Part shown: positions 12,153 to 25,274 of the stretch, piece by piece
Numbering within the stretch: the stretch's first letter is position 1
Layout: each line of letters starts with the position of its first letter
NCBI GenBank assembly: GCA_018646105.1
Contig: JABGVJ010000009.1
Coordinates: forward strand, 1-37,977
DNA: 37,977 bases
Origin: a bacterium
GTDB taxonomy: Bacteria; Margulisbacteria; Marinamargulisbacteria; JABGVJ01
Direction: 5' to 3'
The notes under the pieces: generated by a model
Seen by the model: the letters and a program-made list of their open reading frames with translations, nothing else
Database searches by the model: none
Told to the model about the DNA's origin: nothing
Program-made: the position numbers and the translations under genes

Positions 12153-12923
12153 ATGAAAGTTCTTATTTTAGCAGGTGGCTTTGGTACCAGACTCTCAGAG
12201 GAAACCGAAATCAAGCCTAAACCCATGGTAGAAATTGGTGGTAAACCGATTATCTGGCATATTATGAAATTGTACAGTCATTATGGGTTTAATGAGTTTG
12301 TCGTGCTTTTAGGGTATAAAGGCTATTATATTAAAGAATATTTTGCTAATTATTTTTTACATCAAAGCGATGTCACCATAGATCTTAAAGATAATAGTAT
12401 GGAAGTTCATAATAATTCTGCAGAACCTTGGAAAATTACTTTGTTGGATACAGGAGCGGGAACAATGACTGGGGGTCGTATCAAACGAGCCCAAAAATTT
12501 ATAGGTAATGAACCGTTTATGCTTACCTATGGAGATGGTGTATCCGATGTTGATATTAAAGCACTTTTAAAATTTCATAAAAAACATGGGAAATATCTTA
12601 CAATGACTACTATTAAACCAGCGGGCAGGTTTGGCTCCGTGGGTATTGATGAACAAAATAAAGTGCATTCCTTTATAGAAAAACCTAAAGGCGATAACCG
12701 CTGGATTAATGGCGGTTTTTTTGTTTGTGAACCGCAGATTTTAAATTATCTAGACGGAGATACTACTGTTTTTGAAAGAAAGCCTTTAGAAAAATTAGCT
12801 AAAGATAATCAGTTATATGCCTATAAACACCAGGGCTTTTGGCAATGTATGGATAATTTGAGTGATAAAAATAGTTTAAATAATCTTTGGGATAAAGGAG
12901 AAGCCCCTTGGAAAATATGGTAA
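12153..12923 (+). CDS. rfbF: Glucose-1-phosphate cytidylyltransferase
   Basis: This enzyme makes CDP-D-glucose from CTP and glucose 1-phosphate, the entry to CDP-linked 3,6-dideoxyhexoses. The 256-residue nucleotidyltransferase has the signature LILAGGFGTRLSEETEIKPKP at the N-terminus, then MVEIGGKPIIWHIMK. It continues with LTYGDGVSDVD near residue 125 and the ending DKNSLNNLWDKGEAPWKIW, all typical of RfbF/DdhA. The length is that of the family. It overlaps rfbG by 16 bp, a tight coupling also seen in other rfbFG pairs. AAGGAG upstream of ATG 12153 is a good ribosome site. Confidence 0.96.
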   Translation: MKVLILAGGFGTRLSEETEIKPKPMVEIGGKPIIWHIMKLYSHYGFNEFVVLLGYKGYYIKEYFANYFLHQSDVTIDLKDNSMEVHNNSAEPWKITLLDTGAGTMTGGRIKRAQKFIGNEPFMLTYGDGVSDVDIKALLKFHKKHGKYLTMTTIKPAGRFGSVGIDEQNKVHSFIEKPKGDNRWINGGFFVCEPQILNYLDGDTTVFERKPLEKLAKDNQLYAYKHQGFWQCMDNLSDKNSLNNLWDKGEAPWKIW

Positions 12924-14014
12924 TAAAAAGTTTATTTAAAGATCTTTATCAAAATAAAAAGGTTTTAATTACTGGTCACACTGGTTTTAAAGGTTCCTGG
13001 CTCACCTTATGGCTAAAAGAACTAGGTGCAGAAATTTTAGGATATTCCTTAAGCATTCCAACCAAACCCTCTCATTTCGAACTTTTAGGCTTAGATATTA
13101 AAACAGTCTTTGGGGATATCAGAGATGCTGAAAAATTAAAACAAACTTTTCAGGAGTTTCAGCCGGAAATCGTGTTCCATCTGGCAGCTCAGCCCTTTGT
13201 AAGGGCTTCGTATAAAGATCCTCGCTATACGTATGAAACCAATGTTATGGGTACAGTCAATCTTTTTGAGGCGGTCAGGCAAACCCCTAGTGTGAAGGTC
13301 GTTGTCAATATCACCACAGATAAATGTTATGAAAACAGAGAATGGGTTTATGGCTATCGAGAAAACGATCCCATGGGCGGCTATGATCCATATAGTAACA
13401 GTAAAGGCTGTTCAGAATTAATTACCGCATCATATCGCAATTCTTTTTTTAATGCTGAAGATTTTGGTAAAACGCATAACGTATCCCTAGCATCTGTTCG
13501 AGCAGGTAATGTTATCGGCGGAGGCGACTGGGGCGAGGATCGCTTGATTCCGGATTTTGCGCGTGCTCTTAGTAAAAGTGAGACTTTAGTCCTTCGAAAC
13601 CCGCAAGCTACGCGACCTTGGCAACATGTGTTAGAACCGTTATCCGGTTATTTAAAACTGGGTTCTTTGATGTATCAGAATGGTGCTAAATATAGTAGTG
13701 GTTGGAATTTTGGCCCTCAAGACAGTCATCATTTAACAGTAGAAGAAATCGTGAAACAGAGTCTTAAAATATGGGGTAGTGGGAAATATAAAGTTATTCC
13801 AGATAAAGAGTTACATGAAGCTATGCTCTTAAAACTCGATATCAGCAAAGCGCAATATTATTTAAATTGGCAGCCAGTTTATGACTCAGCCCAAACGATT
13901 GAAGAAAGTATTAAATGGTATAAAGAGTATTATAGCGGGCATCATAATATGAGAGCTTATTCTATAAAGCAAATAGAGGATTATATTGACAAAAGAAATG
14001 TTAAAGAAAATTAA
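12908..14014 (+). CDS. rfbG: CDP-glucose 4,6-dehydratase
   Basis: RfbG converts CDP-D-glucose to CDP-4-keto-6-deoxy-D-glucose with NAD. The N-terminus has VLITGHTGFKGSWL, the NAD-binding motif typical of this subfamily. VNITTDKCYEN and Tyr162-x-x-x-Lys166 (YSNSK) form the active site, and RAGNVIGGGDWGEDRLIPD is another RfbG hallmark. Two starts are possible: TTG 12908, 7 nt after AAGGAG (12895-12900), and ATG 12917, 16 nt after it. Spacing favours TTG, although the choice changes only three residues. It overlaps rfbF by 16 bp and the next gene by 29 bp. Confidence 0.95.
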   Translation: MENMVIKSLFKDLYQNKKVLITGHTGFKGSWLTLWLKELGAEILGYSLSIPTKPSHFELLGLDIKTVFGDIRDAEKLKQTFQEFQPEIVFHLAAQPFVRASYKDPRYTYETNVMGTVNLFEAVRQTPSVKVVVNITTDKCYENREWVYGYRENDPMGGYDPYSNSKGCSELITASYRNSFFNAEDFGKTHNVSLASVRAGNVIGGGDWGEDRLIPDFARALSKSETLVLRNPQATRPWQHVLEPLSGYLKLGSLMYQNGAKYSSGWNFGPQDSHHLTVEEIVKQSLKIWGSGKYKVIPDKELHEAMLLKLDISKAQYYLNWQPVYDSAQTIEESIKWYKEYYSGHHNMRAYSIKQIEDYIDKRNVKEN

Positions 14015-15296
14015 AACTGTATTATTTCAACCTGTTTTCAAACGGAATAATAAAATAGAATTAGTTAGCTTAATTCTTTTAATTGGGTTTGTAGCAGCAG
14101 TTTTTTTTCATTATATCCTGGGGGCATATTTTAATTTAGGCCATCCTTATAATTCTTTTTTATTTACACCAGCAGATAAATTCAATGATTTTTTTAACAG
14201 TATTCGTATGTGGTATCAATATTTAGTGTTAGAGCCCAATCCCTATACATGTTATTTCCCCTTAACCTATGGCTTTATCAATATTTTTCGTTTTATCAAA
14301 CCTGATATTTTATCTCTTAGTATATTTTTATCACTTTTCGTGCTTTTTTTTGTTTGGTATGCTTGGCAAAATCTAAAATTAGAAAATAAAATAGCTAAGA
14401 TAAAAAATGTATTTATTTATTCTTTTCTTTCTTTTCCAGTTTTGTTTGCTATTGATCGGGCTAATTTTGAAAATTTTGTTTTTATTTTTATGGCTCTTTT
14501 TATATTTTTTTATGTTAAGAAAAATTATTTTATTAGCACAATTTTTTTAGCCTTAGCTATTGCTATGAAACTCTTTCCAGCTGTATTTTTAATATTGTTT
14601 TTCACAGATAAAAAATACAAAGAAATTATTTATACGCTTATTATAACCATTTTATCTACAGTAGTTACCTTGATTTTTTTTCAGGGTTCAATTATGGAAA
14701 ATATTCTGAGGATGATTCAAAACCAGGGCTTAAATGCTCAAATGTATGCCATTGGTCATGCCGGGCTCAATTATGGTCATTCTCTCTTTGGCTTTTTTAA
14801 AGTACTAATAGCTTTTTTTATTAAAAAAGCTGATTTTGTATATTATTTACAGCTTTATGTCCCATTTATTTTGATTTTATTTACTTGTTTAATTTTATAT
14901 ATCATTTTTGTGGAAAAACAATTTTGGAAAAAAGTAGCTATTTTAGTTTTTGCCATGTGTTTTTTCACACCTTATGCAGGTGATTATAAATTAATGCATT
15001 TATTTATCCCATTATATTTATTTATTAATGATGATAGTCCAGATAAATATAATGTTATTTATACAATTCTTTTTGCTTTATTATTAATCCCTAAAAATTA
15101 TCTCAGTTTAGTAGGGATAGATTATATTTATGGCGGAGTATTATTGGATCCACTTCTTATGTTAATATTTTTAGCCTTGATTTTATACAATGGATTTAAA
15201 CAACAAACTTTAAAAGTATTATTAGCAAATTCTAAAATAATTTTTTTTGATCAGGTGCAAGCTTTAAAAACTATGTTTAAATTACGAAAATTATGA
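13986..15296 (+). CDS. GT87-like (GT-C) polytopic membrane glycosyltransferase
   Basis: This 436-residue protein has about ten hydrophobic helices, beginning near residue 23. The first periplasmic loop carries acidic residues (PADKFNDFFN) and later NPYTCYFPLTYG. A central segment reads DRANFENFVFIFMAL, then AIAMKLFPAVFLILFF. The pattern Asn near a helix start followed by Lys-x-x-Pro is characteristic of GT87/DUF2029 mannosyltransferase-like enzymes that use polyprenyl-phosphate sugars. It may add a sugar on the outer face of the membrane, but the donor is unknown. TTG 13986 lies 5 nt after AGAGGA, whereas ATG 13998 is 17 nt away, so TTG is preferred. The stop TGA overlaps the next ATG. Confidence 0.65.
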   Translation: MTKEMLKKIKTVLFQPVFKRNNKIELVSLILLIGFVAAVFFHYILGAYFNLGHPYNSFLFTPADKFNDFFNSIRMWYQYLVLEPNPYTCYFPLTYGFINIFRFIKPDILSLSIFLSLFVLFFVWYAWQNLKLENKIAKIKNVFIYSFLSFPVLFAIDRANFENFVFIFMALFIFFYVKKNYFISTIFLALAIAMKLFPAVFLILFFTDKKYKEIIYTLIITILSTVVTLIFFQGSIMENILRMIQNQGLNAQMYAIGHAGLNYGHSLFGFFKVLIAFFIKKADFVYYLQLYVPFILILFTCLILYIIFVEKQFWKKVAILVFAMCFFTPYAGDYKLMHLFIPLYLFINDDSPDKYNVIYTILFALLLIPKNYLSLVGIDYIYGGVLLDPLLMLIFLALILYNGFKQQTLKVLLANSKIIFFDQVQALKTMFKLRKL

Positions 15297-16174
15297 ATAT
15301 TCTACTCACCGGCGGCAGCGGCTTTATTGGTAAAAATATTTTAGAGTCTTTTTTGGCTCAAAAATACCATATTATAGCACCCAGACATCAAGAGCTTGAT
15401 TTAATTGATGAGAATTCCGCAGATCATTTTTTCAAAAATAACCAGATAGATATTGTGATCCATGCTGCTTGTAAACCAGGACATCGCAATGCCAAAGATC
15501 CCACTAATCTTTTTTATCATAATACGCGCATGTTTTTTAATCTCATTCGTAATGCCAAGTATTTTAAAAAAATGATTATCACTGGCTCTGGAGCTGTGTA
15601 TGACCATCGTTATTATCAACCTAAAATGAAAGAAGCCTATTTTGGAGAGCATATACCGGCTGATGAACATGGTTTTAATAAATATGTAATTGGTAAGTAT
15701 ATAGAACATATGGATAAAGTAGTTGATTTAAGAATTTTTGGTATTTTTGGTAAGTATGAAGATTATACAATTCGCTTTATTTCTAATCTTATTTGCAAAG
15801 CTATTTTTGATCTTCCACTTACGATGCGTCAAAACAGGAAATTTGATTATTTATACGTTGATGATTTAATGCCTATTCTAGATTATTTTATCCAGCACAC
15901 TGGTAAACATAGGGCGTATAACGTCACGCCAAACAAATCTTTGGAACTCTCTGAAATCGTACAGAAAATAAAGACTGTTTGTGGCAAAGATTTACCCATT
16001 AAAATCGCCAAACCAGGATTAGGGCTGGAATATAGCGGAGATAATACGCGTTTAAGGCAAGAAATAACCAATCTTCAATTTACCCCCATGGATAATGCCA
16101 TAAAATATTTATACGATTGGTATCTTGAAAATAAAAAGTTAATTCATAAAGAAGCCTTAATGGTGGATAAATAA
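15293..16174 (+). CDS. Extended SDR, candidate YerF-like sugar reductase
   Basis: This 293-residue NAD(P)-dependent epimerase/dehydratase-family protein has the cofactor motif GGSGFIG at residues 7-13. Its active site is Tyr131-x-x-x-Lys135 (YVIGK), and a later YLYVDDL segment is typical of sugar-nucleotide SDRs. It lies between rfbG (via the GT87-like gene) and the ThDP enzyme at 16188. In yersiniose loci the ThDP enzyme YerE is paired with a reductase, YerF, that reduces the newly added acetyl group. Position makes that role likely here, but sequence alone cannot separate it from a 4-ketoreductase or an epimerase. ATG 15293 overlaps the previous TGA. Confidence 0.7.
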   Translation: MNILLTGGSGFIGKNILESFLAQKYHIIAPRHQELDLIDENSADHFFKNNQIDIVIHAACKPGHRNAKDPTNLFYHNTRMFFNLIRNAKYFKKMIITGSGAVYDHRYYQPKMKEAYFGEHIPADEHGFNKYVIGKYIEHMDKVVDLRIFGIFGKYEDYTIRFISNLICKAIFDLPLTMRQNRKFDYLYVDDLMPILDYFIQHTGKHRAYNVTPNKSLELSEIVQKIKTVCGKDLPIKIAKPGLGLEYSGDNTRLRQEITNLQFTPMDNAIKYLYDWYLENKKLIHKEALMVDK

Positions 16175-16187
16175 AAGGAGGAAAGTA

Positions 16188-18005
16188 ATGATAAAAGTAG
16201 CAGACTATATTATGCAAAGATTGGTGGAAAAACATGGTGTAAAGGACATATTTATGATTTCCGGCGGTGGCGCCATGCATCTTAATGATGCCATCGGTAA
16301 ATGTGAAGGGTTAAATTATATTTGTAATCATAATGAGCAGGCGACTGCGATTGCCGTAGAAGGGTATGCTCGCGTTACCGGTAAGATTGGAGTAGCTAAT
16401 GTCACTACTGGTCCTGGCGGGGCTAACGCTATAGGGGGGCTTATTAGCTCCTGGCTGGACTCTATCCCAGCGTTATTTATTTCAGGGCAGGTGAAGTTGG
16501 AAACGTGTTTAGCTAACTATGAAAATATAGGGTTGCGTCAAATTGGCGACCAGGAGATCAATATCATTGATATGGTAAAACCTGTGACTAAATATGCGGA
16601 GATCATTAAAGAGCCTAAACAAATAAAAAAAATGTTAGATAAAGCTATTTATTTAGCTACTCATGGTAGAAAAGGACCGGTCTGGCTGGATATTCCACTG
16701 GATATTCAGGGCGCTATGATAGATGAAAGCGAACTAGCAGAATATGATGAACAAGAAGATAAAAAAGAAATCAATCAACAATATCTCGAATCAAAAGTAG
16801 CTGAAGTTATCAAAGAATTAAAACAAGCTAAAAGACCAGTTTTAGTTGCCGGACATGGTATTAGATTGGCAAATGCTCAAAAAGAATTTTTACAAGTGGT
16901 AGAAAAATTAGGGCTGCCTGTGATTTCTACTTTTAACGGCTTTGATTTGATCCCTACGGATCATCCTTTATATGTTGGTCGTATGAGTACTATTGGCACC
17001 AGAGCTGGTAATTTTGCTGCACAGAATTCCGATGTTTATTTAAGCGTAGGATCACGTAATAATGTCCGTCAGATTAGCTATAATTGGAAAGTAGTAGCTA
17101 GAGAAGCTACTAAAATTATTGTAGATATCGATCCCTTAGAACTAAAAAAACCAACTTTAAAACCGGATTTACCAATTAATTTGGATGCTAAAATATTTTT
17201 ACAAGAATTATTAAAACAAGCTGAAACAGCAGATTTACCCGCTTATACGGATTGGGCTGATTGGTGTCGTGTCCGTAGAGATCGCTATCCCGTAGTATTG
17301 CCAGAATATAGAAATAATAAAGAAGACATTGAGCCATACACTTTTTTTGAAAGCTTAACAAAACAAATGCCTGAGGGAGCGATAGCTACTGCGGGTAATG
17401 GTACAGCTTGTGTGTGTTTATTTCAGGCAGGAATTGTTAAAAAGAATCAGCACATTTTTTGGAATTCTGGCAGTGCCGCCATGGGCTATGATTTGCCAGC
17501 TGCTATTGGGGCATGTGTGGGAAGTGATAAAAAGGATGTAGTCTGTGTAGCTGGAGATGGTAGCTTGATGATGAATATTCAGGAATTAGCTACGGTAGCT
17601 CATAATAAGCTACCTATTAAAATTTTTATTATGAATAACGATGGCTATATCTCTATCCGGCAAACTCAGGCTAATTTTTTTGATAAACGTTGGATAGCTT
17701 GTGACGATAATAGTGGTGTTGGTTTCCCTGATTTTGCTAAAACCGCAGCGGCTTTTGGCCTTCCATATCAACTAATCAATGAACAGTCTTCTATGGAAAA
17801 ACAAATTGCCGAAGTATTAAACACCAAAGGTCCGATTATTTGTGAGGTTAAACTCAAAAGAGAGTATACCTTTAGCCCCAAACTTTCTTCCAAAAAATTA
17901 CCAAATGGCAAAATGGTCTCTAAACCACTCGAAGATTTATTTCCTTTTCTATCCAGAGAAGAGTTTTTAGAAAATATGATTATAGATCCATTGTCAGAGG
18001 AATGA
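16188..18005 (+). CDS. ThDP-dependent acetolactate-synthase-like enzyme, YerE-like
   Basis: This 605-residue protein belongs to the thiamine diphosphate/FAD family of acetohydroxyacid synthases. It shows the activating Glu50 (NHNEQATAI), a central domain near 200-330, and the ThDP/Mg motif Gly456-Asp457-Gly458 ending about 30 residues later in NNDGY. The N-terminal ISGGGAMHLNDAIG is characteristic of homologues found in O-antigen loci rather than of housekeeping IlvB. In Yersinia, YerE transfers a two-carbon acetyl unit from pyruvate to C4 of CDP-4-keto-3,6-dideoxyglucose. Co-occurrence with RfbF, RfbG, RfbH and an SDR supports that role. A true amino-acid-pathway enzyme is unlikely without an IlvN subunit nearby. 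AAAGGAGG precedes ATG 16188. Confidence 0.78.
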   Translation: MIKVADYIMQRLVEKHGVKDIFMISGGGAMHLNDAIGKCEGLNYICNHNEQATAIAVEGYARVTGKIGVANVTTGPGGANAIGGLISSWLDSIPALFISGQVKLETCLANYENIGLRQIGDQEINIIDMVKPVTKYAEIIKEPKQIKKMLDKAIYLATHGRKGPVWLDIPLDIQGAMIDESELAEYDEQEDKKEINQQYLESKVAEVIKELKQAKRPVLVAGHGIRLANAQKEFLQVVEKLGLPVISTFNGFDLIPTDHPLYVGRMSTIGTRAGNFAAQNSDVYLSVGSRNNVRQISYNWKVVAREATKIIVDIDPLELKKPTLKPDLPINLDAKIFLQELLKQAETADLPAYTDWADWCRVRRDRYPVVLPEYRNNKEDIEPYTFFESLTKQMPEGAIATAGNGTACVCLFQAGIVKKNQHIFWNSGSAAMGYDLPAAIGACVGSDKKDVVCVAGDGSLMMNIQELATVAHNKLPIKIFIMNNDGYISIRQTQANFFDKRWIACDDNSGVGFPDFAKTAAAFGLPYQLINEQSSMEKQIAEVLNTKGPIICEVKLKREYTFSPKLSSKKLPNGKMVSKPLEDLFPFLSREEFLENMIIDPLSEE

Positions 18006-18012
18006 TCATCAG

Positions 18013-18699
18013 ATGAATAAAAAATATTTAAAGCTATTAATCTTATTTGGAATAGCAATTACTTTGATTGTTATATATCAAACAAAATTAAATGTTTTTT
18101 TTAATTTAGAATTTTTAAAAGCTAATATAGACGCCCTGATCAATTGGTATCAATCTGACAGTGTTTTTTTTATTTTTATTTTAGCTATAATTACCATTCT
18201 TTGTATAGCTTTTTCTTTACCGGTAGTAGCGCTTTTAGCCTTAGCTAGTGGCGCCATTATAGGTCCTTTGTATGGAGGGGTCTTAGTTAGTTTGTTTTCT
18301 GTAATAGGGGCGAGCCTATCTTTTTTAATAGCAAGATATATTTTCAGAGCGGAACTTGAAAAAAAATATCAAAATAAAGTAAATACGATTAACAAAGGAT
18401 TGCATAAAAACCTTTGGAATTACTTGTTTTTCATAAGAATAGCCGCGGTTTTTCCTTTTTTTATAGTTAATATAGTTTTAGGTTTGAGTAGAGTTTCACT
18501 TAAGAATTTTTTTATCAGTACTTTTATAGGGATGTTGCCCGTAATTTTTATTTATGCGTTTGCTGGAAGGCAATTAGTGCAATTGAATTCTCTCAAGGAT
18601 GTATTTTCTTTTAACATTTTAATCGTATTTTTTCTATTTGGATTATTATTATTAGCCCCCATTATTTTAAAAAAGATAACAAGAAAAATATATAAATGA
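18013..18699 (+). CDS. TVP38/TMEM64 (VTT-domain, DedA-superfamily) membrane protein
   Basis: This 228-residue protein has about six hydrophobic segments. The VTT-domain pattern is clear: LASGAIIGPLYGGVLVSLFS and GASLSFLIARY near residues 75-112, then RIAAVFPFFIVNIVLGLSRV near 140-160. DedA-superfamily proteins include undecaprenyl-phosphate flippases and lipid scramblases, so a role in recycling the glycan carrier lipid is a reasonable inference, not a proof. It is sandwiched between the ThDP enzyme (7 bp gap) and the reductase at 18696, with which its stop overlaps. Confidence 0.85.
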   Translation: MNKKYLKLLILFGIAITLIVIYQTKLNVFFNLEFLKANIDALINWYQSDSVFFIFILAIITILCIAFSLPVVALLALASGAIIGPLYGGVLVSLFSVIGASLSFLIARYIFRAELEKKYQNKVNTINKGLHKNLWNYLFFIRIAAVFPFFIVNIVLGLSRVSLKNFFISTFIGMLPVIFIYAFAGRQLVQLNSLKDVFSFNILIVFFLFGLLLLAPIILKKITRKIYK

Positions 18700-19589
18700 A
18701 AAAAAACATATTACTTACAGGCGCAACAGGTTTTTTGGGCAGCAACTTGCTTAAAGCTTTACTTCAAAATGAATATAATGTAATTATTTTGAAACGAAGT
18801 TTTTCTAATATTTTTAGAATTGAAAGCCTTATAAAAAAGGTTGTTTATTATGATGTTGATAAAATTGATCTCCATAAAATTTTCCAGGAAAACAAAATAG
18901 ATATTATTATACATTGCGCGACTTCTTACGGGAGAAAAAAAATAGAGCCGCTGTCTACTTTAGACGCGAATCTTGTTTTCCCCCTTAATTTATTAGAGTT
19001 AGGTACGAAATATGGCGTTAAGGCATTTTTAAACACAGATACAATTCTGGATAAAAGAATTAATTATTATTCACTTTCTAAAAATCAGTTCAAAGATTGG
19101 TTAAAAATGTATTCCAATAAGTTGGTTTGTATTAACATAGTCCTGGAACATTTTTATGGCCCTAACGATGACAATTCAAAATTTGTAACTTTTATTATTA
19201 ACAGCTTGTTAATGAAGCCGGTCAAAATAGATTTAACGGAGGGGGATCAAATCAGAGATTTTATATATATAGACGATGTAGTTAACGTCTTCATCGTGAT
19301 TTTAAAAAATATAGAGGAATTCAAACAAAATTTATATAATTTGGAAGTTGGCACTAACAAACCCATCTCGATAAAAAGTTTTGTAAAAACCGTAAAAAAA
19401 ATAATAGGGAACCATAAAACTTTATTGAATTTTGGAGCCTTGCCTTATAGACGAAACGAAATAATGAGTTTCAAGACAAACACAGAAGCAATAAGAGACT
19501 TAGGATGGGTACCTAAAATTTCCTTGGAAGAGGGATTGAAAAAAACGATGGAAGTAGAAAAAGAAAAGATTAGAAAGGAAAAAAAATGA
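18696..19589 (+). CDS. CDP-paratose/abequose synthase-like 4-ketoreductase (RfbS/RfbJ type)
   Basis: This 297-residue extended SDR has the NADP motif GATGFLG at residues 9-15 and an active site at Tyr125-x-x-x-Lys129 (YSLSK). Later come DFIYIDDVVNVF and a C-terminal DLGWVPKISLEEGL. RfbS and RfbJ reduce C4 of CDP-4-keto-3,6-dideoxyglucose to give CDP-paratose or CDP-abequose. The downstream RfbE-like 2-epimerase uses CDP-paratose, so RfbS-type stereochemistry is the better guess. Start and stop both overlap their neighbours by ATGA, so it is translated as part of a tight block with 18013 and 19586. Confidence 0.72.
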   Translation: MKKNILLTGATGFLGSNLLKALLQNEYNVIILKRSFSNIFRIESLIKKVVYYDVDKIDLHKIFQENKIDIIIHCATSYGRKKIEPLSTLDANLVFPLNLLELGTKYGVKAFLNTDTILDKRINYYSLSKNQFKDWLKMYSNKLVCINIVLEHFYGPNDDNSKFVTFIINSLLMKPVKIDLTEGDQIRDFIYIDDVVNVFIVILKNIEEFKQNLYNLEVGTNKPISIKSFVKTVKKIIGNHKTLLNFGALPYRRNEIMSFKTNTEAIRDLGWVPKISLEEGLKKTMEVEKEKIRKEKK

Positions 19590-20608
19590 AATATTTAATA
19601 ACAGGAGGCTGCGGATTTTTAGGGTCGAATTTAGCTGCAGAAGTTTTATCAAAGCAAGAAGAACTCTATATTTTAGATAATTTATCGAGAAAAGGCAGTG
19701 AACTAAATTTAGCTTGGTTAAAAACAAAAGGTGAATTTAAATTTTTCAAGTCAGATATCAGTAGCAAAAACGAAATAAACAAAATTATAAAAGAAGTAAA
19801 ACCAGACGTCATTTTTCATTTAGCAGGACAAGTAGCAATGACGACGTCCATAAACAATCCGCGTCTAGATTTTGAAACTAATGTATTAGGTTCTTTTAAT
19901 TTATTAGAAGCCGTTAAAAATTTTTCAAAAGATAGCCTTATAGTTTATTCCTCTACTAACAAGGCCTATGGGGATTTAGAATGGGCTAAATATGAAGAAA
20001 CAAAGATGAGATACAAAGTCGTTGATTTCCCACAAGGATTTTCAGAGAATAGTCCTCTTGAATTTCATTCGCCATATGGATGTTCTAAAGGGGCTGCGGA
20101 TCAGTATATGTTGGATTTTTATAGAATTTTTGGGGTTAAAACAGTAGTATTCAGACACTCCTCAATGTTTGGAGGAAGGCAATTTTCAACAAGCGATCAA
20201 GGATGGATTGGTTGGTTTTGCCAAAAAGCAATAGAAGCTAAAAAAGGAATATTAAATAAACCTTTTACAATATCTGGTAATGGAAAACAAGTAAGAGATG
20301 TGTTATATGCTGATGATATGGTTGATCTGTATTTTAAAGCTATTGAAAATATAGATCATACAAAAGGACAAGTTTTTAATATAGGAGGAGGGATGGATAA
20401 TAGTTTATCCTTATTAGAGCTTTTTGAAATCTTAGAAAAGAACTTAGATATAAAATTAAATTACATTAAACTCCCACCTAGAGAAAGTGATCAAAAAGTT
20501 TTTGTCGCCGACATTACTAAAGCAAAAAAACTAATGGGCTGGAGCCCCAAAATTACTAAGGAAGTAGGTATTAAAAGAATGTTAGAATGGGAAAAAGAAA
20601 ATGACTAA
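19586..20608 (+). CDS. rfbE: CDP-paratose 2-epimerase (RfbE/tyvelose epimerase type)
   Basis: RfbE interconverts CDP-paratose and CDP-tyvelose at C2 through a bound NAD. The 340-residue SDR has GGCGFLGSNLA at the N-terminus and LAGQVAMTTSINNPRLDFE near residue 77, a signature of this epimerase. It also has SSTNKAYGDLE near 125, Tyr164-x-x-x-Lys168 (YGCSK), and FRHSSMFGGRQ near 187. The C-terminal half has GNGKQVRDVLYADDMV, also characteristic. It follows the reductase with a 4-bp ATGA overlap and runs 8 bp into the next GT2 gene, forming a compact tyvelose-type unit. Confidence in the family is high; the true substrate in this organism is inferred. Confidence 0.87.
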   Translation: MKYLITGGCGFLGSNLAAEVLSKQEELYILDNLSRKGSELNLAWLKTKGEFKFFKSDISSKNEINKIIKEVKPDVIFHLAGQVAMTTSINNPRLDFETNVLGSFNLLEAVKNFSKDSLIVYSSTNKAYGDLEWAKYEETKMRYKVVDFPQGFSENSPLEFHSPYGCSKGAADQYMLDFYRIFGVKTVVFRHSSMFGGRQFSTSDQGWIGWFCQKAIEAKKGILNKPFTISGNGKQVRDVLYADDMVDLYFKAIENIDHTKGQVFNIGGGMDNSLSLLELFEILEKNLDIKLNYIKLPPRESDQKVFVADITKAKKLMGWSPKITKEVGIKRMLEWEKEND

Positions 20609-21299
20609 AAATATGAATTTTTCAGTAATAATCCCGGCATATTTAGAAGAAGAAAATCTGCAAATAATTTTGCCTGAATTGCAAGAAGAGATAGCGAAAA
20701 TAACAAAAGAGTATGAAGTTTTAGTCATTGATACCATGAAAAGCAAGGATAATACTAAAGACGTTTGTTCAAAGCATGGCGCTGTCTATATAAATAGAGA
20801 GCACGGGGATAATTATGGGGATGCAATTGTAACAGGTATTAAATATGCTAAAGGGGAATATGTGCTTTTTATGGACGCAGATGGGTCCCATTCTCCTTTT
20901 TTTATAAAAAATTTATATAAATATAAAGACGAATACGATGTTGTGATTGCCTCAAGATATGTTGAAGGAGGTTCTACTGATAATAGCTCTGTTTTAATAT
21001 TAATGAGCAAAGTTGTAAATATTTTGTACTCGGTTATTTTAAATTTGAAATGTAAAGATGTTTCAAATAGTTTTAAATTGTATAAAGGTCAACAATTAAA
21101 AAAACTGAATTTAAAATGCCAAAATTTTGATGTTGTGGAAGAAATTTTATTTAAATTAAACAAGCATAATAAAAATTTAAGCATAAAAGAAATTCCATTT
21201 GCTTTTAAAAAAAGAATGTTTGGTAGTACTAAAAGGAATTTGTTCGCATTTATTTTTTCGTATTTAGTAACTATTTTAAAATTAAGGTTTGGGAAATAG
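20601..21299 (+). CDS. GT2 family glycosyltransferase, DPM1-like
   Basis: This 232-residue GT-A fold protein starts FSVIIPAYLEEENLQIIL. A DADGSHSP metal-binding motif lies near residue 94, and VIASRYVEGGSTDNS near 115 is a feature of polyprenyl-phosphate-sugar synthases. Unusually, the first nucleotide-binding stretch reads VIDTMKSKDNT, where most family members have Asp-Asp-x-Ser-x-Asp. It lacks the C-terminal membrane helices of GtrB-type enzymes. Because it directly follows the RfbE-like gene it may transfer the 3,6-dideoxyhexose, or make a polyprenyl-linked donor. Start ATG 20601 overlaps rfbE; ATG 20613 is also possible. Confidence 0.75.
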   Translation: MTKNMNFSVIIPAYLEEENLQIILPELQEEIAKITKEYEVLVIDTMKSKDNTKDVCSKHGAVYINREHGDNYGDAIVTGIKYAKGEYVLFMDADGSHSPFFIKNLYKYKDEYDVVIASRYVEGGSTDNSSVLILMSKVVNILYSVILNLKCKDVSNSFKLYKGQQLKKLNLKCQNFDVVEEILFKLNKHNKNLSIKEIPFAFKKRMFGSTKRNLFAFIFSYLVTILKLRFGK

Positions 21300-21325: not shown

Positions 21326-21354
21326 TTATCACGTATCAAAGTCTTTAGTATAAT
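21326..21354 (+). promoter_or_regulatory. Sigma-70-like promoter before the aldolase-SDR-cyclase module
   Basis: A perfect TATAAT lies at 21349-21354. TTATCA at 21326-21331 gives a -35 box with 4 of 6 matches at the ideal 17-bp spacing. It falls in one of the few gaps in the cluster (21300-21393) and is followed by AAAGGAGG just before ATG 21394. This suggests the downstream module can be transcribed on its own. Confidence 0.5.
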
Positions 21355-21393: not shown

Positions 21394-22209
21394 ATGAATA
21401 ATTTAGAGAAAAGAATGGTAGAGGCTTTAAAAGATTTAAAAGAAAATCATTGTGTAATAGGGATTAAGGCCGAATTTGAGGCTGAAGGCACGCGTATGGA
21501 AGAGGCTCTTCGTCTCAAAGAAGTAGTTACCAGAGCAGGGTTGGATCTAACGATAAAAATAGGGGGCTGTGAAGCGTTAAAAGATATGTATGACGCGAGG
21601 GCCATTGGCGTATCCCGTATTGTAGCACCGATGATTGAATCTGCTTATGCGGTTAAAAAGTTTTTAAAATCAGCTAAATTAGCTTTTCCTGCAGATGAAA
21701 TAGCAGAAGTTGATTTATTGATCAACGTTGAAACCGAACAGGGCTACAAAAATTTTGATGAGATGCTAGCCCTTCCGGAAATCAAACAATTGACGGGTAT
21801 AGTTTTGGGCAGAGTGGATATGACCGGATCACTAGGCCTTAGCCGTGAAAATATTAATTCACCTCAGATTTTTGAAATAGCAAATAACCTTATGAGTAAA
21901 GCCCAGGCTAATTCTTTAGAAGGGGTTATTGGCGGAGGTGTTTCCAAAGAATCCTTACCGTTTTTCAGGGAATTACCAAAAGGTTCTTTGCATCATTATG
22001 AAACCAGAAAAGTAATTTTTAAATGCCCTGAAGCTTTAAACGCTAATGCAGACAAGGGTATCTTAAAAGCTGTCGGATTTGAGCTTATGTGGTTGAAAAA
22101 CAAACGTGATTTTTATGGTAAAATTTTTGATGAAGATAAAATCAGGTTGGAAATGTTGGAAAAAAGATACCACAAATTAATTCAAGAGGCCGGAGGGCTA
22201 GATGCCTAG
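21394..22209 (+). CDS. HpcH/HpaI (CitE-like) aldolase family protein
   Basis: Members of this family are metal-dependent class II aldolases or lyases that join or split pyruvate-type units. The 271-residue protein has IKIGGCEALKDMYDARAIGV near residue 56 and VAPMIES near 77. Candidate metal ligands are Glu113 (NVETEQG) and Asp142 (GRVDMTGSLG), spaced as in HpaI-type barrels. It is divergent from the degradative HpaI enzymes and stands in a glycan cluster, so it may act on a sugar or ulosonate. It has its own promoter-like sequence and an AAAGGAGG site, and its stop overlaps the SDR start. The substrate is unknown. Confidence 0.8.
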   Translation: MNNLEKRMVEALKDLKENHCVIGIKAEFEAEGTRMEEALRLKEVVTRAGLDLTIKIGGCEALKDMYDARAIGVSRIVAPMIESAYAVKKFLKSAKLAFPADEIAEVDLLINVETEQGYKNFDEMLALPEIKQLTGIVLGRVDMTGSLGLSRENINSPQIFEIANNLMSKAQANSLEGVIGGGVSKESLPFFRELPKGSLHHYETRKVIFKCPEALNANADKGILKAVGFELMWLKNKRDFYGKIFDEDKIRLEMLEKRYHKLIQEAGGLDA

Positions 22210-22873
22210 AAAACAAACAGCTTTAATTACCGGTGCTTCAAGAGGTATTGGTGAGGCTATTGCTAAACTTTTTATTTTAAACAATATTGAAGTTTTAATG
22301 CCTACGCGTCAAGAAATGGATTTATCCGATAATGACTCCATAGATAAATATATTTCCTTAATAGATAAACCTATTGATATTCTTGTTAACAATGCAGGTA
22401 TCAATAATATTGAAGAAATACAAAAGCTTTCAGATAAAAATATTGTTGAAACGTTACAAATTAATTTAGTTTCAGCGCTTAGATTGACGCGTGAACTCAG
22501 TAAACAAATGCTTTTACAAAAATACGGCAGAATTGTAAATATTAGTTCTATTTGGAGTGTTGTATCAAAGCCAGGTCGCTCAATCTATTCTATAAGCAAA
22601 GAAGGGTTAAATGCCTTATCACGATCTTTAGCAGTAGAACTGGCTAAAGATAATATTTTGATAAATTCAGTTGCACCTGGTTTTGTAAATACAGAATTAA
22701 CCAAAAAAAATAATTCAGAAAAAGTTTTAAAAACAATTGCTCAAAATATTCCAGCTCAAAGACTCGCAGAACCCACAGAAATAGCTGAATTAGTCTATTT
22801 TTTATGTTCGTCTAAAAACACTTATCTTACAGGACAAACCATCTTAATTGATGGGGGATATACATGTCAGTAG
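22202..22873 (+). CDS. Classical SDR oxidoreductase (FabG-like)
   Basis: This 223-residue classical short-chain dehydrogenase has TGASRGIG near residue 9 for NAD(P) and NNAGI near 64. Its catalytic Ser115/116, Tyr129 and Lys133 lie in SSIWSVVSKPGRSIYSISK. A VAPGFVNTEL segment lies near 158, and the C-terminus TGQTILIDGGYTCQ is typical. It resembles FabG, but its position between an aldolase and a dehydroquinate-synthase-like cyclase points to a keto-group reduction on a sugar or carbocycle. Starts and stops overlap on both sides (8 and 10 bp), so the three proteins are probably made together. GGAGGG precedes ATG 22202. Confidence 0.85.
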   Translation: MPRKQTALITGASRGIGEAIAKLFILNNIEVLMPTRQEMDLSDNDSIDKYISLIDKPIDILVNNAGINNIEEIQKLSDKNIVETLQINLVSALRLTRELSKQMLLQKYGRIVNISSIWSVVSKPGRSIYSISKEGLNALSRSLAVELAKDNILINSVAPGFVNTELTKKNNSEKVLKTIAQNIPAQRLAEPTEIAELVYFLCSSKNTYLTGQTILIDGGYTCQ

Positions 22874-23934
22874 ACGTAATAAATTTAAGATCCAATATCA
22901 AAGATTATATAGCTATATTTCCTGAAGATAACAGTTTTTTGCAAGAAATAAATCAAGAACAGCATAAAATATTTATTATTGACCAAACTGTAGACAAGTT
23001 ATATGCCTCAAAATGTTTAAATGTGTTAGGCAACGCAGAGAAAATAATTTTTAAAGTGCATGAAACCAGCAAAAATATTCATGGGGTAATCGCCTTATAT
23101 GATCAAGTAATGAAGTTTCAACCCAAAAAAAATACTACCATTATTTCAATAGGGGGGGGGATTATGCAAGACCTCTCCGGGTATGTTGCTTCAACGTTAT
23201 TTAGAGGGGTTAAATGGATATTCATTCCCACTACTCTTTTAGCTCAAGCAGATAGTTGTATCGGCGCCAAGACTTCTTTGAATTATAAAAAATATAAAAA
23301 TTTAATGGGAACGTTTTATCCGCCTAATACTATCTATATTTATCCAAATTTTTTACAAACTCAAAATGAGACTGATTATTATAGTGGCGTGGGCGAAGTT
23401 GCTAAGTTGTTATTAATGGGTGGAGAAGATGCCACTCAATTTTTTTTAAAACATCTAGCTGAAATTAAAAAAAGGGATTTTCTTGTATTATCACAAATCA
23501 TAAAAAAATGTTTGCTAATTAAAAAAGCATATATTGAGGAAGATGAATTTGATATGGGTAAACGTAATATGCTTAATTTTGGACATTGTTTCGGACATGC
23601 TCTAGAAACCGCTACAAATTTTATTGTACCGCATGGCCAAGCGGTTGTTTTAGGAATTATATTAGCAAATTATATAGCAGAAAAAAGAAATGTTTTATCA
23701 GCAAAAAAAAGAGAGTACCTTCAAAAAAATATTTTAACTGAAATATTAAAAATAGATATTAACAGTATAAAAATAAACTTAACAGAAGTTATTGCTGCTA
23801 TGAAAAAAGATAAAAAACGGATTGGCCAGGATCTCCCTCTGATTATGCTTAATGATAATTATGAAATGCTCAAAATAAATGATTTAAAAGAGACAGAAGT
23901 TGAATACGCATTAAAAAAAATAGGTTGGCTATAA
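22864..23934 (+). CDS. Dehydroquinate-synthase-like sugar phosphate cyclase
   Basis: This 356-residue protein is homologous to AroB and the sugar phosphate cyclases that form carbocycles from ketose phosphates. NAD binding is shown by IGGGIMQDLSGYVAS near residue 97. The metal ligands are preserved: Glu178 (GVGEVAK), His241 (NFGHCFGHALE, with His245 catalytic) and His257 (PHGQAV). KKDKKR near 316 is also present. In the PTTLLAQADSCIGAKTSLN stretch it has Cys and Ala where AroB normally has Ser and Gly (DSSVGGKT), near the substrate site. That difference and its location in a glycan locus suggest a dedicated cyclase rather than the housekeeping shikimate enzyme. AroB function cannot be excluded. 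Confidence 0.82.
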   Translation: MSVDVINLRSNIKDYIAIFPEDNSFLQEINQEQHKIFIIDQTVDKLYASKCLNVLGNAEKIIFKVHETSKNIHGVIALYDQVMKFQPKKNTTIISIGGGIMQDLSGYVASTLFRGVKWIFIPTTLLAQADSCIGAKTSLNYKKYKNLMGTFYPPNTIYIYPNFLQTQNETDYYSGVGEVAKLLLMGGEDATQFFLKHLAEIKKRDFLVLSQIIKKCLLIKKAYIEEDEFDMGKRNMLNFGHCFGHALETATNFIVPHGQAVVLGIILANYIAEKRNVLSAKKREYLQKNILTEILKIDINSIKINLTEVIAAMKKDKKRIGQDLPLIMLNDNYEMLKINDLKETEVEYALKKIGWL

Positions 23935-23948: not shown

Positions 23949-25274
23949 ATGCAATATAATGAAACTTTAAAACAAGAAATTCTACAAAAAGTAACAGAAT
24001 ATTACCAGGCTGTTCATGCTAAATCGGACAAGGATTTTGTGGAGGGTAAGTCCCGCGTTAATTACGCTGGACGTGTCTTTGATGAGACCGAAATGCAAAA
24101 TCTTGTCAGCGCCAGTCTTGATTTTTGGCTTACGCAAGGAGAATGGACTGATAAGTTTGAAAAAAAATTAGCTGAGTTTTTAGGCGTGAAATATGCTTCT
24201 TTTGTCAATTCCGGTTCCTCTGCCAATTTACTTGCTTTTATGGCCTTAACTTCTTCTAAACTTGGCGATAAACGCATAAAAAAAGGGGACGAGGTTATTA
24301 CGGTCGCGGCTGGGTTTCCTACTACCGTAGCCCCTGTTGTGCAGTATGGGGCGGTTCCTGTTTTTGTGGACGTTGATCTTGAGACATTTAATATTGATAC
24401 TACGCAATTGGCAAAAGCCTATTCATCTAAAACCAAGGCTGTCATGCTCGCGCATACGCTGGGAAATCCTTTTGATATTAGTGCTGTTAAAACTTTTTGT
24501 GAAAAACATCATTTATGGTTAATCGAAGACAATTGTGACGCTTTAGGTAGCATGTATGATAATAAGTACACCGGCACTTTTGGACATATAGGAACTTCTA
24601 GCTTTTACCCCCCTCATCATTTAACCACAGGCGAAGGCGGAGCAGTATATACGAATGATATAAAGCTGTATAGAATTATCAATTCTTTTCGTGACTGGGG
24701 ACGTGATTGCTGGTGCCACTCAGGCAAGGACGATACTTGCCATAAAAGATTTACGCAGCAGTTTGGCACATTGCCTTTTGGCTACGATCATAAGTATGTT
24801 TATAGTCACCTAGGATACAATCTCAAGGCTACAGATCTGCAAGCTGCTATTGGTGTAGCGCAGCTAGCAAAGCTACCAGCGTTTATTAAAAAAAGAAGAG
24901 TTAATTTTGATATCTTATATAATGGGCTTAAAGAATTAAATCATATTTTTATTTTGCCACAAGCTACAGCTAAGGCAATGCCTAGTTGGTTTGGTTTTTG
25001 GCTAACTATTAAAGATCATACTAAGCTTAATAGAAATGATTTGGTGAAATATTTAGAGCAAAATAATATTCAAACCAGAAACCTTTTTGCTGGTAATATT
25101 ACCAGGCATCCTTGTTTTACAGAATTAGAGGTCAATAAAGATTATAGGATTGTTGGCAAATTAGAAAATACAGACAAAATTATGAGTGCTGCTTTTTGGG
25201 TTGGGGTTTATCCGGGCATGAAACCGGAAGCTCTGCAATTTATGGTAAAAAAAATCAAGGGGTTTGTAAAATGA
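23949..25274 (+). CDS. rfbH: CDP-4-keto-6-deoxyglucose 3-dehydratase (E1, PMP and 2Fe-2S)
   Basis: RfbH removes the C3 hydroxyl of CDP-4-keto-6-deoxyglucose, using PMP and an iron-sulfur cluster. The 441-residue protein has the aminotransferase fold, but His223 ([14 protein letters not shown]) stands where PLP enzymes have Lys, the hallmark of E1. Cysteines 196, 254, 256 and 264 correspond to the four cluster ligands of Yersinia E1 with a constant offset of three (193, 251, 253, 261), and His223 to its His220. It lies 14 bp after the cyclase gene and overlaps fcl by ATGA. The E3-type reductase (RfbI/AscD) that recycles the cluster is not in this window. Confidence 0.96.

Follow-up and report, generated by a model that had tools for sequence, protein, structure and literature searches.

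A putative route to a carbocyclic branched 3,6-dideoxysugar suggested by a conserved aldolase, reductase and cyclase gene set in bacterial polysaccharide loci

The closest described systems are the YerE-type pathways. In these, YerE couples pyruvate to CDP-4-keto-3,6-dideoxyglucose, whereas ErwE couples hydroxylated keto acids to it; ErwE and MMAR_2332, the YerE-like enzyme of caryophyllose synthesis, favour hydroxylated keto-acid donors (PMC12247030). JanthE is likewise a YerE-like carboligase (PMC12247030, PMC12188165). Monosaccharides with a carbocycle are also known from LPS, i.e., bradyrhizose and caryose; the genes for the synthesis of bradyrhizose were unknown when a candidate cluster was reported (PMC4743980). 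Next to the genes for a CDP-activated dideoxysugar and a YerE-like enzyme, the locus described here carries three genes that encode an aldolase (ALD), a short-chain reductase (SDR) and a sugar phosphate cyclase (CYC). We consider it somewhat probable that this triad contributes to the synthesis of a CDP-activated 3,6-dideoxyhexose that carries a carbocyclic branch at C-4.

The window, i.e., the whole stretch of 37,977 nucleotides that was analysed, is a portion of a polysaccharide locus in a genome of 1.56 Mb, and it contains the four genes by which a YerE-type pathway is recognised, namely rfbF, rfbG, rfbH and that of a YerE-like ThDP enzyme. Upstream of the triad are found, all on the plus strand, rfbF (glucose-1-phosphate cytidylyltransferase, 12153..12923; TIGR02623, 420.8 bits with a cut-off of 300), rfbG (CDP-glucose 4,6-dehydratase, 12908..14014; TIGR02622, 506.5 bits with a cut-off of 278), a GT87-family membrane glycosyltransferase (13986..15296; PF09594, 39.4 bits), which is a recurrent neighbour also present in L005, L007, L011, L016 and L021, the extended SDR epim293 (15293..16174; Pfam Epimerase, 89 bits), a conserved member kept beside the ThDP enzyme across loci, and the ThDP enzyme itself (16188..18005). 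The nearest solved structure to the latter is that of JanthE (8rph, 410 bits), followed by an acetolactate synthase with 252 bits; it shows a GDG motif where JanthE has CDG. A search of plasmids with this protein returned acetolactate synthases only, among the matches listed. Between the ThDP enzyme and ALD (18013-18699 and 18696-21299) there are a VTT-domain membrane protein, two more epimerases and a GT2 glycosyltransferase; these two epimerases and the GT2 gene recur in L005 and L011. Downstream of the triad come rfbH, a GDP-fucose synthase and glycosyltransferase genes.

The triad consists of ALD, an HpcH/HpaI-fold aldolase of 271 aa (21394..22209, plus strand; Pfam HpcH_HpaI, 33.7 bits), SDR, a classical short-chain reductase of 223 aa (22202..22873, plus strand; adh_short_C2, 164 bits), and CYC, a cyclase probably of the TIGR04425 clade with 356 aa (22864..23934, plus strand; DHQ_synthase N 115.7 bits and C 107.9 bits). 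ALD and SDR overlap by 8 bases, and SDR and CYC by 10. A preliminary description had reported these three overlapping genes together with a ribosome site, a TATAAT promoter and rfbH directly after them. The open reading frames are present at these places and their Pfam families agree with the reported ones; the ribosome site, AAAGGAGG, precedes the ALD start codon at 21394; and rfbH (CDP-4-keto-6-deoxyglucose 3-dehydratase, 23949..25274, plus strand; NF011936, 733 bits with a cut-off of 423) follows directly. The likely start of rfbH is the ATG at 23949, preceded by AAAGGAG, hence this gene does not overlap CYC. The promoter stood less well: a TATAAT box with 10 of 12 positions matched exists at 21326-21354, but such sites are no more common in the window than expected by chance (13 found against 16.7 expected), and the box adds no support.

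To see this gene set in other genomes, the window was joined with 20 loci from a scan of one genome per species and four class A loci from 74 genomes of the phylum, giving 25 non-redundant bacterial loci. SDR and CYC are neighbours in every one of them, usually with ALD before the pair, and the order of the triad is far beyond chance. The ThDP enzyme accompanies them in 24 of the 25, the exception (L013) being a contig whose end lies 64 bases short of ALD; a keto-acid-forming enzyme is equally present in 24, the exception here being a contig of 3.2 kb (L004). A strong match to rfbH was found in 15 of the 25, several of the others being cut by contig ends, and the CDP-3,6-dideoxyhexose genes rfbF, rfbG and rfbH are usually present in loci with CYC. 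The CYC records name Geobacteraceae, Melainabacteria, Wirthbacteria, Planctomycetota, Elusimicrobiota, Margulisiibacteriota, Pseudomonadota, Myxococcota, Actinomycetota and Chloroflexota, at least ten phyla in total. Conservation extends beyond the triad to a larger unit.

Several other arrangements were observed in this survey. A diverged version of the whole module (rfbH, ALD, SDR, CYC, ThDP and epim) is present on 17 contigs classed as viral (IMG/VR; L075-L077 and L079-L092, of 11-328 kb), whose ThDP and CYC copies form their own clades; of the few flanking genes checked, those of L085 gave two PHROG families of unknown function and those of L082 a weak match, so that the viral origin is putative. 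In two genomes of the phylum, rfbH contains an in-frame intein with splicing and LAGLIDADG domains (L022:1068-3821 and L134:11485-14253). A gene of the metallo-beta-lactamase fold adjoins or lies near the ThDP gene in L056 (12905-13654) and L058 (4843-5589), and also in L130 and L131.

The structural model of ALD (pLDDT 92.5) has HpaI, YfaU and HpcH as its best Foldseek matches, with an E-value of 1.2e-9 and a TM score of 0.53-0.58 for HpaI. The residues E113 and D142 are invariant and align to the metal ligands of the HpcH/HpaI class II pyruvate aldolases. K55, present in all 18 ALD rows, seems to occupy the place of the catalytic Arg70 of HpaI in an alignment made by eye, the aligned part of a further comparison stopping short of this residue. 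In four loci ALD is absent, and another enzyme is found near ThDP and CYC: an HMGL-type (DmpG-like) protein in L003, L007 and L053, and a NeuB-family protein in L009. The nearest solved relatives of the HMGL-type copy of L007 are the putative aldolase 3dxi and 4-hydroxy-2-oxovalerate aldolases. HpcH/HpaI, HMGL-type and NeuB enzymes all condense an aldehyde with pyruvate or PEP to form a 4-hydroxy-2-oxo acid. Since three unrelated makers of C-C bonds occupy the same slot, these swaps are strong indirect evidence that ALD would form a 4-hydroxy-2-oxo acid. Two tandem diverged copies replace the single ALD gene in L014 (317-1937) and L072 (4532-6158). A distant relative (37%) occurs on the plasmid pILYOP01 of Ilyobacter polytropus (L094:10001-10774), beside aconitase, isocitrate/isopropylmalate dehydrogenase-like genes and a 2-hydroxycarboxylate transporter, a setting that hints at another role of this aldolase family.

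The model for TIGR04425 gives CYC 391 bits against 269 for that of aroB; the curated cut-off of 400 is exceeded in three of the 74 genomes of the phylum. In a tree of 65 rows, CYC falls in a class A/B group with all the other cyclases of glycan loci, apart from 24 AroB rows, while DOIS and EboD are placed elsewhere; this tree comes from a quick search with SH-aLRT support only and has several long branches. A search of plasmids for orthologues of CYC retrieved nothing but AroB, DOIS and EboD-like proteins, with about 32% identity or less. As judged from sequence comparison, CYC belongs to a clade of its own that is not the housekeeping AroB and that has relatives in ten phyla. The AlphaFold model (pLDDT 93.4) superposes on the dehydroquinate (DHQ) synthases 1xag, 1xai and 5hvn with TM scores of up to about 0.88, and the 11 residues listed as DAHP contacts in the S. 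aureus enzyme (PMC6262012) are all invariant in 24 class A rows. The comparison with other cyclases covered DOIS and EboD: at S. aureus positions R235, N239 and K314, DOIS has A/G, E and N, and EboD has S/A, D and Q/R, while CYC keeps R, N and K (R234, N238 and K317); K220, changed in EboD, is also kept. Q102 and W118 are invariant and specific to CYC, with S138 and P153 nearly so. As all the contact residues are kept in classes A and B, the active site gives no indication of which members of the family would take a carboxylate substrate and which a non-carboxylate one.

From the gene content, its conservation, the protein families and the sub-module swaps that were observed, we infer the substrates, the order of the steps, the product and the size of its ring as follows. 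RfbF, RfbG and RfbH would provide CDP-4-keto-3,6-dideoxyglucose. ALD is predicted to make a phosphorylated 3-deoxy-2-keto acid of the DAHP type from pyruvate and a phosphorylated aldehyde, probably a tetrose 4-phosphate. The ThDP enzyme is predicted to couple this acid to C-4 of the keto-sugar, for which it would decarboxylate it and add the acyl unit to the C-4 ketone; a seven-carbon donor would thus place on C-4 the branch C(=O)-CH2-CHOH-CHOH-CHOH-CH2-OPO3, which would resemble the substrate of DHQ synthase, the sugar standing where that substrate has its carboxylate. On this branch CYC could carry out a transient oxidation, the elimination of phosphate and an aldol closure onto the branch ketone, leaving a six-membered ring with a tertiary alcohol and a ketone. 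The ring ketone is predicted to be reduced by SDR, which has FabG-like relatives in the PDB, and the glycosyltransferases of the locus would build the residue into a surface glycan. That DHQ-synthase chemistry takes place on a side chain bound to a nucleotide sugar, yielding a monosaccharide not seen before, namely a 3,6-dideoxyhexose with a cyclitol attached to C-4 through a C-C bond, is a tentative proposal, to which we give a little less than an even chance.

This scheme accounts for the joint presence of CYC, SDR, a keto-acid maker and the ThDP enzyme in all bacterial loci that are not cut by contig ends; it agrees with the known use of CDP-4-keto-3,6-dideoxyglucose by YerE-like enzymes, with pyruvate or hydroxy-keto acids (PMC12247030), and with the DHQ-synthase contacts and fold retained by CYC. 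Other points count against it. The kept residues R234, N238, K317 and K220 would suit a free-carboxylate substrate as well, the pocket of a DHQ synthase is tight for a CDP-sugar, a lysine apparently replaces the catalytic Arg70 of HpaI in ALD, and SDR-CYC also occurs without the ThDP enzyme in L054, L057 and L060. In addition, if epim293 were the counterpart of the yersiniose branch reductase, it would reduce the very branch ketone on which CYC depends.

The order of the steps bears on a different reading, in which CYC acts on the free keto acid that ALD produces, closing it to a dehydroquinate-like acid, SDR turns it into a quinate-like residue, and the ThDP enzyme separately makes a yersiniose-type sugar from pyruvate, the two being joined in the glycan. 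This would be literal AroB chemistry and fits the invariance in CYC of all 11 DAHP contacts, even those altered in DOIS and EboD; nevertheless, we consider it unlikely. ThDP and ALD occur together without SDR-CYC in L071, L072 and L074, and distant ThDP enzymes of the phylum (L126-L131 and L134) lie beside NeuB-family enzymes, also without CYC, so that the best interpretation of the keto acid is as the donor of the ThDP enzyme. Cyclisation would consume its keto group, which places CYC after the ThDP enzyme; moreover, the constant co-occurrence of both enzymes in these loci would be left unexplained by a cyclisation of the free acid.

It is rather improbable that SDR-CYC makes a cyclitol from another sugar phosphate, independently of ALD and ThDP, their clustering reflecting one shared glycan. 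Such independence is suggested by the class B loci (L054, L057 and L060), where SDR-CYC is found without ALD or ThDP and in the company of a 2-hydroxyacid dehydrogenase or a MocA oxidoreductase, with a SIS isomerase in L054. These loci, of which L057 also has a cytidylyltransferase-cupin gene, resemble a distinct glycan pathway of the cyclitol type, and SDR-CYC can be separated from the rest as a sub-module. However, the tree places the class B cyclases apart from the bacterial class A group, which is well sampled, and the association of class A with a ThDP enzyme and a keto-acid maker, constant over ten phyla, is too tight for two unrelated residues.

The phosphate of the substrate gives a further clue. 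A HAD phosphatase or motif lies next to ThDP or ALD in eight of the ten CYC-less loci with a donor enzyme, detected by Pfam in L071, L128, L129 and L130 and by the signature motif only in L126, L127, L131 and L134, although most of these loci form one clade and the ten cases are not independent. In contrast, no HAD motif was found near ThDP in any of 23 CYC-bearing bacterial loci, and no HAD family was among the 25 most common ones when 81 neighbours of CYC loci were scanned with Pfam. L071 falls inside the CYC-bearing ThDP clade, and its HAD phosphatase sits between ALD and epim293, the place of SDR-CYC in its relatives. A cyclase that needs the phosphate of its substrate would explain this distribution. 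There is very little probability, in our judgement, that CYC is only a phospho-lyase or redox enzyme and that the branch stays acyclic, as a caryophyllose-like chain; long acyclic branches of this type are known products of YerE-like pathways (PMC12247030), yet CYC keeps all the contact residues of DHQ synthase, and a phosphatase alone would suffice, as the CYC-less loci seem to use. Finally, in spite of its AroB-like fold and residues, CYC can be practically discounted as a housekeeping or duplicate dehydroquinate synthase, since the genome has a second DHQ-synthase gene (aroB, contig C26), a DAHP synthase (C111) and a type I DHQase (C28) elsewhere, and CYC lies outside the AroB clade with Q102 and W118 as its own invariant residues.

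Both of the outcomes that would have spoken against the preliminary description, a cyclase grouping tightly with housekeeping AroB in a genome without another aroB and a module not conserved beside glycan genes elsewhere, were looked for, and neither was found. The triad had been viewed as a possible dedicated glycan route with a shikimate-like logic; an aldolase, a cyclase and a reductase do lie beside dideoxysugar genes, but they would not make a self-contained pathway of this kind, because ALD belongs with the ThDP enzyme, with which it is paired in cyclase-less loci, and SDR-CYC is separable. As to the product, a dideoxyhexose with a carbocyclic C-branch appears more likely than a free carbocycle.

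In the literature searched, no paper was found on these genes or on TIGR04425 together, although surveys of the YerE family may hold an earlier description; as far as found, no such pathway has been characterised. If the proposed pathway is correct, it would be the first proposed genetic route to a carbocyclic branched glycan residue of this kind, as far as found, and would unite two textbook reactions, ThDP carboligation and sugar phosphate cyclisation, within a single pathway. It would also predict that the envelopes of Geobacteraceae, Sulfuriferula and many uncultured phyla contain a sugar not seen before; the records of Geobacter sp. AOG1 and Sulfuriferula multivorans TTN are not MAGs, so that their glycans can be analysed directly.

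Bradyrhizose and caryose resemble the predicted residue in having a carbocycle in an O-antigen sugar. Both were set aside as products for want of a matching mechanism or gene list: no synthesis genes for caryose were found in the literature, and this sugar, a cyclopentane, does not follow from a DAHP-like precursor. With the pathways of yersiniose, erwiniose and caryophyllose the locus shares the supply by RfbF, RfbG and RfbH and the YerE-like carboligase; it differs in the addition of a cyclase and a classical SDR and in the missing phosphatase, and no described member with a cyclase was found. With AroB and the other cyclases (DOIS, EEVS/ValA and EboD) CYC shares the fold and the metal and substrate-contact residues of DHQ synthase, but it forms a separate clade in glycan loci, and three or four contact residues differ from those of DOIS and EboD. 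The family that fits it best, TIGR04425 ("AroB-related putative sugar phosphate phospholyase (cyclizing)"), whose cut-off CYC narrowly misses and some of its orthologues surpass, is named but uncharacterised and also takes in the class B loci; for this family the proposed pathway would provide a testable function.
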